Of a stretch of 64,000 nt of DNA, positions 4,297-53,398 are shown piece after piece. Source of the DNA: Rikenellaceae bacterium (GTDB taxonomy: Bacteria; Bacteroidota; Bacteroidia; Bacteroidales; Rikenellaceae); NCBI GenBank assembly GCA_015060105.1, contig SUZD01000002.1:1-64000 (forward strand), read 5' to 3'. The position numbers and the translations under genes are program-made. The number at the start of each line of letters is the position of its first letter. Within the stretch, counting starts at the first letter, position 1. The notes under the pieces were generated by a model, which was given only the letters and a program-made list of their open reading frames with translations, had not been told where the DNA came from and did no database searches.

Positions 4297-5862
4297 ATGC
4301 AAGACATTGATATATTGAAAGCAAAGTCGCAGGAAGAGCTTGAAGTCATCGCTGCGGCTATGGGTATTTCCGGAGCACACAACAAGGCAGAACTTATAGC
4401 TCTGATTACAGGAGAGCCTGCAACTCCGTCGGAAGAGGCTGTTGCTCCCGCGCCACGACGCCGAGGTCGCCCTCGCAAAACAGAGGCGCAAAAAGTTTCG
4501 CCCACACCCGCAGAGCCTGTGCAAAACAACGAGCCTATCGCAGCAGAGGTTACAACAGCTCCCGAAGAGGTAAAGGTCGAGGAGAAGCCGCAACCCAAGA
4601 AGCGCGGTCGTAAGCCCAAAAACAAGACAGAGGAGAGCGCACAATCGACCGAAACGTCTGCAACTCCCACCATCGAGGAGAGCGCTGCGACTACTATTGA
4701 GCCTATCATCAACACCAAGAATTACAATGAATTCAAAGATGATTTCTTGGGCGTTATCGAGTGTGAGGGTGTTTTGGAGATTATGCCCGACGGCTATGGT
4801 TTTTTGCGTTCGGCCGACTATAACTATCTCAACTCGCCCGACGATGTCTATGTAGCACCTTCGCAAATCAAGAACTTTGGTTTGAAACCCGGCGATACTG
4901 TAACTGGCACCATTCGCCCGCCCAAAGAGGGTGAAAAATACTTTCCGTTGTTGAAAGTCGATATGATTAACGGACTTACACCCGAGCAGGTACGTGACCG
5001 CGTACAATTCGAGTATATGACCCCGCTATTCCCCAGCAAAAAATTCTGTTTGACCGAGAAAGGACACAACAATCTCTCGACACGTGTGGTTGATCTCTTC
5101 TCGCCAATCGGCAAGGGACAACGCGGACTTATCGTAGCTCAACCCAAAACCGGTAAAACCGTCCTACTTCAAAATATTGCTAACGCTATTGCTGATAATC
5201 ATCCCGAGGTTTATATGATTGTCCTGCTTATTGACGAACGCCCCGAGGAGGTTACCGAGATGGCTCGCAATGTTAAGGCCGAAGTTATTGCATCTACCTT
5301 CGACGAGCAGGCAAGCCGCCACGTCAAGGTTGCCGAAATGGTGCTCGAAAAGGCAAAACGTATGGTTGAATGTGGACACGATGTAGTGATTTTCCTCGAC
5401 TCTATCACCCGTTTGGCTCGCGCCTACAACACCGTGCAACCCGCTTCGGGCAAGGTCCTCTCGGGTGGTGTCGATGCTAATGCACTGCACAAGCCCAAGC
5501 GTTTCTTTGGTGCCGCTCGTGATACCGAGGAGCGAGGCTCGCTTACCATCATTGCGACCGCTCTTATTGACACCGGCTCCAAGATGGACGAGGTTATCTT
5601 CGAGGAGTTCAAAGGTACGGGTAATATGGAGTTACAACTCGACCGTAAGCTCGCCAATAAACGTATCTATCCCGCTGTTGATGTTGTGGCATCGGGTACT
5701 CGTCGCGAGGATTTGTTACTCAACAAAGACGCACTGCAAAAGACTTGGATTTTGCGTCGCTACCTGTCGGATATGACCTCGGTTGAAGCGATGGAGGAGA
5801 TTCGCAAACACATGGAGAACACTATCGACAACAACGAGTTGTTGGCAACTATGAACAACTAA
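4297..5862 (+). CDS. rho: Transcription termination factor Rho with basic/acidic N-terminal insertion
   Basis: [35 protein letters not shown]; low-complexity RRRGRPRK region after N-terminal Rho domain. Start could also be ATG 4291. Confidence 0.95.
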
Positions 5863-5863
5863 T

Positions 5864-6637
5864 ATGAAGCGTTTTTCGTTACTTGCCGTCGTTGCGCTTT
5901 GTTTTAGCCAAAGTATTTTTGGCTGGGGCGCCGTTGGTCACGATGCTGTTTGCGCCATAGCCGACCATAACCTCAAACCCAAAGCCCGACGCGAACTACA
6001 CAAGATACTCGACGGACACACCATTGTATATTATTCGTCGTGGATGGACTATCTGCGTAATGTTGATGGCTACGAGGCGACTTACACATGGCACTACGCC
6101 AATGTCGATGAGGGTAAAAGCTACGAAACGATGCGCAAAAATCCCAAAGGCGATGTTGTAACCGCCATCAACGACTGCATCAACACTTTGCAGCAACGCG
6201 ATATTTGCGACAGCCTGCGCTCGACCTATACCAAATACTTAATTCATCTTGTTGGCGACCTTCACTGCCCGATGCATGCTGGTCGAGCAACTGACGCAGG
6301 TGGCAACAGACATCAAATCAAGTGGTTTGGCAAGAGCACTAATTTACACTCTTTGTGGGATTCGAAACTCATTGAGTCCTACCACAAATGGCACTATTCG
6401 GAGTGGTGCGAACAACTTGACCGCGCAGACCGTCGTACCCGCCGAGAAATATGCAAAGGTAGTGTCGAGGATTGGTTTGCCGAGAGTGTCGAGATTGCAA
6501 AAATGGTTTACGAAAAGACCCCCGCAAATGGTAACTACTCCTACGCATATTCGTTCGAAATGCCCCCCGTTGTAGAGGAGCAAATCGCCAAAGCAGGGTA
6601 CCGATTAGCATACCTTCTCAATAAAATTTTCGGGTAG
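5864..6637 (+). CDS. Secreted S1/P1-type nuclease
   Basis: Signal peptide ending before WGAVGHDAVCAIA, HLVGDLHCPMHAGRATDAGGN. Confidence 0.88.
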   Translation: MKRFSLLAVVALCFSQSIFGWGAVGHDAVCAIADHNLKPKARRELHKILDGHTIVYYSSWMDYLRNVDGYEATYTWHYANVDEGKSYETMRKNPKGDVVTAINDCINTLQQRDICDSLRSTYTKYLIHLVGDLHCPMHAGRATDAGGNRHQIKWFGKSTNLHSLWDSKLIESYHKWHYSEWCEQLDRADRRTRREICKGSVEDWFAESVEIAKMVYEKTPANGNYSYAYSFEMPPVVEEQIAKAGYRLAYLLNKIFG

Positions 6638-52313: not shown

Positions 52314-52649
52314 TTAAGAATGTAAATATTTAAGACAACATCTAACTATAATTGCCAATACTTTCCAAGAAACGAAAGAAACAATAGTACAGATTAACGC
52401 AACTATGAATCCCCAAATGTCAAAATAATCCCAGTCGAAGCCTAAATATGGTCTATCACAATTGCGAATTGAAAATAGGATTGTACAAATTCCTCCTGCT
52501 ATGAGTATTAAATATGACAATACATTTATCGCAGACTCTACCCATTGGTGATTGTCAGCAAATTCGTTCGATTTGCACGAATCGCAGCAATAGTCGCTAT
52601 TTTGGTCAGATAAAACGCAACCACATTTCTTGCATAATTTTCCGCTCAT
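52314..52649 (-). CDS. Small zinc-ribbon membrane protein of unknown function
   Basis: CKKCGCVLSDQNSDYCCDSC plus two hydrophobic segments; 111 aa in an AT-rich island. Confidence 0.6.
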   Translation of the reverse strand: MSGKLCKKCGCVLSDQNSDYCCDSCKSNEFADNHQWVESAINVLSYLILIAGGICTILFSIRNCDRPYLGFDWDYFDIWGFIVALICTIVSFVSWKVLAIIVRCCLKYLHS

Positions 52650-52710
52650 AATACTTTGAATTTTAAGTTAAACAATAAGTGTCAAGCCGTAGATGGCAAC
52701 CGTTTAACTC

Positions 52711-52870
52711 AAAAAAGAGAAAGCGTGGGTCACGCTTATACCTTGAAGGGACGACCAAGTACCCATACACACATAAGCACAACTCACGCCATAGAGCGTG
52801 AGCATTTAGCGTGCCTATTGCTTGTGTGTAATAATTTGGTCGTTTTACAAGGTAAGCAATAGCCTAAATG
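52711..52870 (-). ncRNA. Candidate pseudoknotted structured RNA (sRNA or cis-regulatory leader) with intrinsic terminator
   Basis: Nested complementary arms 52854-52871/52802-52823 and 52823-52853/52739-52773, hairpin 52783-52802, terminal hairpin AAGCGTG-ACC-CACGCTT + TCTCTTTTTT (minus strand). Confidence 0.5.
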
Positions 52871-52874
52871 CCAT

Positions 52875-52909
52875 CAAACATATTGCGTATTCCGCAATAC
52901 ATCTACAAA
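52875..52909 (-). promoter_or_regulatory. Candidate promoter of the structured RNA with internal dyad
   Basis: Minus strand TTTG-N23-TATGTTTG (spacer 2-4 nt longer than ideal); dyad TATTGCG-N5-CGCAATA inside the spacer. Confidence 0.4.
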
Positions 52910-53008
52910 ATTCGTGATTATTTTTCAAATATCATAATTTTAGCTCCCTTTTTATTGATTTGGAGTTTTCAACATTTTGGAATATATTTGTGGAAAAGAA
53001 TTACACTT

Positions 53009-53398
53009 ATGAAAAAACTACTTATTGCCATTATGTTTGTGATGTCGGGACTTGTTGCCTCGGCGCAAACAACCAAATCGAGCGTTCGCATCATTAGCGA
53101 CCAATATCCGTTCCTGAACTCGACACACTCGCTATCTACAATCAAGCGTCTTTACAATATGTTCCCCGATTTTATGATTGAGAAAGGCAATCGCGCGTTC
53201 CAAATTATTTGGAGCGACTGGAAGACCGAGAACAACATCAACTACGGAGGTGCGACTTTGGTTTCGCATCGCGAAGGCGAATGGGATATTATGGACATCG
53301 AGTACAAAAAGATGGGCGTAAAACTGCAAGTCCGATTGGACGAGCGCGGTCGCCGCGATGTTGAAAAGATGTTCAACTACAAGAAACCCAAAGAGTGA
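53009..53398 (+). CDS. Secreted hypothetical protein
   Basis: Signal peptide MKKLLIAIMFVMSGLVASAQ; upstream TATATTTG promoter box. Confidence 0.6.
   Translation: MKKLLIAIMFVMSGLVASAQTTKSSVRIISDQYPFLNSTHSLSTIKRLYNMFPDFMIEKGNRAFQIIWSDWKTENNINYGGATLVSHREGEWDIMDIEYKKMGVKLQVRLDERGRRDVEKMFNYKKPKE

Follow-up and report, generated by a model that had tools for sequence, protein, structure and literature searches.

A segment of the minus strand at 52711-52871 of the window, i.e., the whole stretch of 64,000 nt of Rikenellaceae DNA analyzed here, raises the question of whether it encodes a structured RNA in its own right or a leader that controls the gene located behind it. The initial annotation had described an H-type pseudoknot, and all of the helices that it named were found at the expected sites on this strand: GCATTTAG (52871-52864) pairs with CTAAATGC (52809-52802), CTATTGCTT (52862-52854) pairs with AAGCAATAG (52823-52815), and the segments ACCTTG, ACGACCAA and ACACACA pair downstream. 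The features of the element and its surroundings, all of them on the minus strand, are the following:

52906-52913, minus strand: probable -7 promoter box GAATTTTG, with one mismatch to the consensus TAnnTTTG
52880-52900, minus strand: 5' leader hairpin GTATTGCG...CGCAATAT, read from the sequence; similar palindromes occur at the equivalent place in family members
52854-52871, minus strand: segment A, GCATTTAG-G-CTATTGCTT, the 5' strand of the pseudoknot helix A:B
52848-52853, minus strand: 5' strand of S1, ACCTTG, with its partner at 52745-52740; of all the helices, S1 shows the strongest covariation in relatives
52836-52843, minus strand: 5' strand of X, ACGACCAA, with its partner TTGGTCGT at 52758-52751
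52823-52829, minus strand: 5' strand of V, ACACACA, with its partner TGTGTGT at 52773-52767
52802-52823, minus strand: segment B, AAGCAATAG-GCACG-CTAAATGC, partner of A or, in part, of C
52783-52802, minus strand: hairpin h, CTCACGC/GCGTGAG, whose 3' strand is common to segment C
52773-52789, minus strand: segment C, GCGTGAGTTGTGCTTAT, partner of D (terminator) or of B and the 5' strand of h
52767-52773, minus strand: 3' strand of V, TGTGTGT, placed by the sequence and the relatives
52751-52758, minus strand: 3' strand of X, TTGGTCGT, with a short GGGT/ACCT helix around it in relatives
52740-52745, minus strand: 3' strand of S1, CAAGGT, which pairs with ACCTTG
52723-52739, minus strand: segment D, ATAAGCGTGACCCACGC, the 3' strand of the terminator helix C:D
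52711-52722, minus strand: T-rich run of the intrinsic terminator
52666-52709, minus strand: second leader stem, AGTTAAAC (52709-52702) with GTTTAACT (52673-52666), kept among family members
52314-52649, minus strand: downstream gene for a 111-aa protein with a Cys-rich, zinc-ribbon-like N-terminus and hydrophobic segments

The second leader stem also occurs in two relatives (L003 and L020), and hairpin h, noticed from the start, is present in nearly all of the copies. The 111-aa protein matched no Pfam family above its cut-off. A small divergent gene with a signal peptide lies on the plus strand at 53007-53398, with its start about 100 nt from the promoter of the leader, and the ORF containing it had no Pfam match.

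The 165 nt between 52875 and 52711 (minus strand) gave a folding energy of -64 kcal/mol, compared with -38.6 kcal/mol (sd 3.8) in 200 shuffles (z = -6.6). The minimum-energy fold was a long nested rod composed of S1/X/V and hairpin h, not the pseudoknot, which would form once segment A, on the 5' side, engages segment B within this rod. Independently of the folding energy, a chance origin is excluded by the homologs and their compensatory changes. Double changes in the stems were already visible in the first alignment of 11 sequences, and in a sequence-only alignment of 39 members 86.0% of the S1+X+V cells were paired, vs 59.0% (sd 1.2) in shuffles, with 246 double changes vs 84.6. The covariation score of these three helices in the same members was 0.664, whereas it was 0.186 after shuffling and about 0.1 or less when the partners were slid. 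Swapping partners between members left weaker duplexes: S1 went from -10.5 to -4.7 kcal/mol, V from -12.1 to -5.5 kcal/mol; the swapped-partner value for X is biased by the way in which X was located, and this helix is supported by the sequence-only alignment. The short GGGT/ACCT helix around the 3' strand of X was also supported, and the segments GAAA, GGGT and ACCT are invariant in the S1/X/V core. Helix A:B, on which the pseudoknot depends, performed better with its own partners than with swapped ones (-17.2 vs -12.5) and had a covariation score of 0.228 vs 0.184, so that the comparison among relatives supports it, but more weakly than the core helices and C:D. An alternative closing helix, A:D, was rejected as barely above chance, and a coding reading of the element was discarded since stops and indels vary between copies.

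The T-run at the 3' end had been recognized correctly, and at least six T in 8 nt were found at this place in 96% of 105 parsed copies, compared with 11% just upstream of the element. The stem assigned to it fared differently. The proposed hairpin, AAGCGTG-ACC-CACGCTT, does exist in the window, which explains why it was chosen, but it is not conserved: a stable local hairpin precedes the T-run in only 17% of the relatives. The conserved terminator stem is instead the long-range helix C:D (52789-52773 with 52739-52723, minus strand), located immediately 5' of the T-run, with a mean duplex energy of -23 kcal/mol vs -3.5 kcal/mol for the local hairpin. In an alignment of 103 members built without this helix, C:D showed 56 double changes vs 26.3 (sd 4.4) expected, a value reached in none of 500 shuffles, and G-U pairs are frequent in it. 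The element thus ends as an intrinsic terminator does, in a stable GC-rich stem followed by a T-run.

Segments B and C also have a second choice of partner. The duplex energy of B:C was -13.8 with own partners vs -11.4 with swapped ones, whereas no difference between own and swapped partners was observed for the controls A:C and B:D. Conserved and mutually exclusive helices that include the terminator, the signature of an attenuator, are therefore found here, with A:B, B:C and C:D all surpassing their swapped partners. In many members, a segment E complementary to D lies downstream of the T-run; D:E was better with its own partner than with 62% of the swapped ones (controls, 51%), which lends moderate support to this predicted pairing. 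The pairings A:B, B:C, C:D and D:E therefore make up a chain of alternatives. Since a single four-way junction joins A:B, S1, C:D and V, their co-existence is a three-dimensional question; topology makes it demanding to form the full S1-X-V stem alongside A:B and C:D, and any particular co-existing state is tentative.

The box TATGTTTG at 52882-52875, originally taken as the promoter, fits the -7 consensus of Bacteroidota, but the closest relatives lack it. These share a box about 25-30 nt farther upstream, whose equivalent in the window is GAATTTTG (52913-52906) and which reads TAATTTTG, TATATTTG, TATCTTTG or TACCTTTG in those relatives. Overall, TAnnTTTG, the Bacteroidota -7 box, was found upstream of 84 of the 119 copies (12.3 expected), but only 2 of 118 had one in the 60 nt that follow the T-run (5.3 expected). 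An ATG-started ORF follows within 250 nt in 109/119 elements, at a median distance of 51 nt from the T-run. With a -7 box upstream and none enriched between T-run and gene, the simplest assumption is that transcription reaches the gene by way of the element. By these sequence signals, the element lies between a promoter and a start codon with no promoter in between, as a cis-acting 5' leader does. Additionally, a minimal ORF (ATGnnnStop) within 60 nt upstream was detected in 36/119 copies (13.7 expected), an enrichment confined to some lineages. The motif ATGACATAA was found upstream in 15 copies (0.2 expected) and is conserved 5' of segment A in L046, L048, L051, L054, L058-L060 and other loci; it may represent an ORF of two codons or a palindromic site, TATGACATA.

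The search for further copies was carried out with plain DNA comparison and with models derived from the element of the window. In 101 related genomes, the DNA search yielded clear homologs within the family of the window, and the other families of the order gave weaker ones. A first covariance model gave matches in 151 of the 393 genomes sampled from the order and in 43 of the 396 from the phylum, other classes included; Bacteroidota was the only phylum sampled, and the copies per genome in these two samples are to be read as at least the numbers counted. A second model, from 103 members, matched in 51 of 61 genomes of Rikenellaceae, the family of the window, and found 2 to 40 copies per genome in 15 chosen carriers. 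The genome of the window itself has five copies at E <= 0.01, of which three also pass E <= 0.001. The copies on its contigs C3, C12 and C10 each lie 39-72 nt 5' of a lipoprotein-like ORF, and the match on C1 is weak and its ORF not exported.

Several particular copies deserve description. About 40 belong to one 2.6-Mb genome (L055, L065-L070, L170-L189), where many precede paralogs with formylglycine-generating-enzyme-like and glycine-rich domains and where hairpin h carries a long AT-rich insertion. Another lies at about 4969-5138 of a contig from human faeces labelled Bacteriophage sp. (L025, MT835758.1 reversed), near an ORF resembling an AAA/OLD-type ATPase. A further one is found at about 6001-6120 of a mobilizable plasmid of Rhizosphaericola mali (L169, NZ_CP044017.1), where it follows a replication initiation gene and precedes a hypothetical gene by about 94 nt.

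The genes behind the element share a destination. A signal peptide or lipobox was called, by a simple heuristic, in 43 of the 56 downstream ORFs with a length of 100 aa or more (77%), compared with 35 of 160 other ORFs of the same loci (22%; p = 4.6e-13). Most of the downstream genes thus appear to encode exported proteins, i.e., lipoproteins, secreted proteins and outer-membrane proteins. Their families are diverse, including formylglycine-generating-enzyme-like and tail-collar proteins and TonB-dependent receptors, to which inspection by eye added leucine-rich-repeat proteins, BACON-like proteins and short lipoproteins. For the target in the window, a small protein of membrane-like character, the same heuristic called no signal peptide. 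In genomes labelled Flavobacteriaceae-like on the basis of their genes, several copies are placed 200-370 nt before TonB-dependent SusC-like receptors, and not at about 50 nt. In seven such loci (L148, L150-L155), small divergent genes of the XRE-like helix-turn-helix type lie about 280 nt upstream, and a common motif, ATGGCCCTC..., is present between the element and the receptor gene.

Altogether, the element probably belongs to a new family of 5' leader RNAs that control exported-protein genes in cis, by transcription attenuation. The relatives strongly favor what the initial annotation had offered as an alternative, a leader whose terminator controls the gene behind it. That reading had missed the C:D helix, the competition between helices, the multi-copy spread across the phylum and the link to exported proteins. 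Under the attenuation model, the transcript would start about 20-60 nt upstream and carry the S1/X/V core, A:B, h and C:D, the last of 17-20 bp and followed at once by the T-run, with the coding region, devoid of a promoter of its own, about 50 nt later. Formation of A:B and C:D would exclude B:C, and because these pairings are exclusive, termination is expected when A:B frees C for D. In the off state, A would capture B, C would be free for D and transcription would stop before the gene. In the on state, A would be unavailable, B:C and hairpin h would occupy C, no terminator would form and RNA polymerase would read into the gene, with D pairing with the downstream segment E. The anatomy, the alternative pairings and the terminator emerge from the comparison of relatives, whereas which of the states is on, and what flips the switch, we infer; the input may be a ligand that binds the S1/X/V core, a protein, a ribosome close to segment A or an antisense RNA.

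The first of these inputs leads to a riboswitch, a sub-case of the attenuation leader in which a small molecule, perhaps a second messenger, would bind the S1/X/V core as its aptamer and a large envelope regulon would be under this control. The conserved unpaired segments beside sequence-variable helices, the terminator as an expression platform and the single class of targets agree with it, but these targets lack a metabolic theme, and we consider this version possible rather than probable. Equally tentative is the broader proposal of an orphan riboswitch-like switch with two pseudoknots, present throughout the phylum and employed up to about 40 times by a single genome, by which one global cue would set the expression of the exported proteome of Bacteroidota.

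A discrete small RNA acting in trans and ending at the terminator, with the downstream gene incidental or reached only by leak-through, is unlikely. A promoter-like box, a compact structure and a T-run would suit it, and terminating leaders would release an RNA of about 190 nt as well. However, an ORF at a nearly fixed distance (median as above), without its own promoter and of one functional class, is not expected behind such an RNA, and many divergent copies per genome would be unusual for a single trans-acting RNA. The relatives accordingly do not bear out a discrete RNA of about 155 nt as the main function.

More improbable still is a mobile repeat, a MITE-like cassette of promoter and leader whose structure serves its own spread. 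It would account for a copy number that reaches 40 in a genome, for the frequent location of copies close to contig ends, for those on a plasmid and a phage-labelled contig, and for flanks that are alike within a genome; but no terminal repeats or transposase were noticed in the flanks examined, the relation to the start codons of exported proteins is fixed, and the common G-U pairs of the conserved helices fit RNA rather than DNA. The copies within a genome are, moreover, old and divergent. In one genome, of which 27 copies were examined, S1 was only 38% identical between copies, yet 95% of the S1 cells paired, and identity was 74% in the unpaired columns and 87% in the 45 nt that follow the T-run; stems S1 and V vary within one genome and the loops stay similar. 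Paralogous downstream genes were 0.49 identical at four-fold degenerate sites, against 0.36 for S1. Diversifying selection on the stems, as address tags, was rejected given that S1 does not lie far below the four-fold sites, and a constraint on pairing only is sufficient. Old paralogy with this constraint explains most of the stem variability, and the unpaired segments, at 75% identity, are more alike than synonymous sites, which indicates that purifying selection acts on them. Lastly, a recombination site of folded single-stranded DNA, similar to attC, can practically be dismissed: variable but paired stems and conserved unpaired positions recall it, whereas the copies are scattered rather than arrayed as cassettes, no integrase association was noticed, and an upstream promoter, a T-run on one strand and frequent G-U pairs speak against it.

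The RNA family is absent from Rfam 15 and spread across Bacteroidota. At gathering cut-offs, the window and 10 divergent relatives gave no match other than tRNAs elsewhere in the window, as the lack of any recognized family had suggested, and a lax search returned only matches at chance level, the best below threshold being rteR (18.8 bits vs a cut-off of 72), outside the core. A description of such an RNA family was not found in the open-access literature, which does not prove that none exists. With the Bacteroidota motifs of Rfam (rteR, Bacteroidales-1, Flavo-1 and others) the element shares the phylum, without a match at gathering level. Structured 5' regions reported in Flavobacterium psychrophilum include pheA, hisG, ftsY, acsA, alaS, rimP and Flavo-1 (PMC9723704); like the element, they comprise unassigned structured leaders of this phylum, and the examples named in that source concern other genes.

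The element resembles known terminator-controlled leaders (amino-acid attenuators, transcriptional riboswitches and the T-box) in being a 5' leader with mutually exclusive helices and an intrinsic terminator just 5' of the coding region, and some of those classes also have many members per genome. It differs from them in that most copies appear to have no leader peptide, in that no tRNA or ligand motif was recognized, in that the 5' strand of the terminator lies inside a structured core with a double pseudoknot, and in that its targets are defined by export, not by a pathway. Riboswitches for c-di-GMP, classes I and II, occur in many copies per genome before diverse, often cell-surface genes. 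The element does likewise, but is larger, has no Rfam match and is found in Bacteroidota, the phylum sampled.

Bacteroidota are dominant in many guts and degrade polymers by means of huge sets of surface proteins, and to our knowledge few of their RNA regulators have been described. An abundant and easily recognized leader RNA before such genes would define a regulon, provide targets that can be studied without delay and raise the question of what signal it reads, and its covariance model can be used at once for annotating new genomes.
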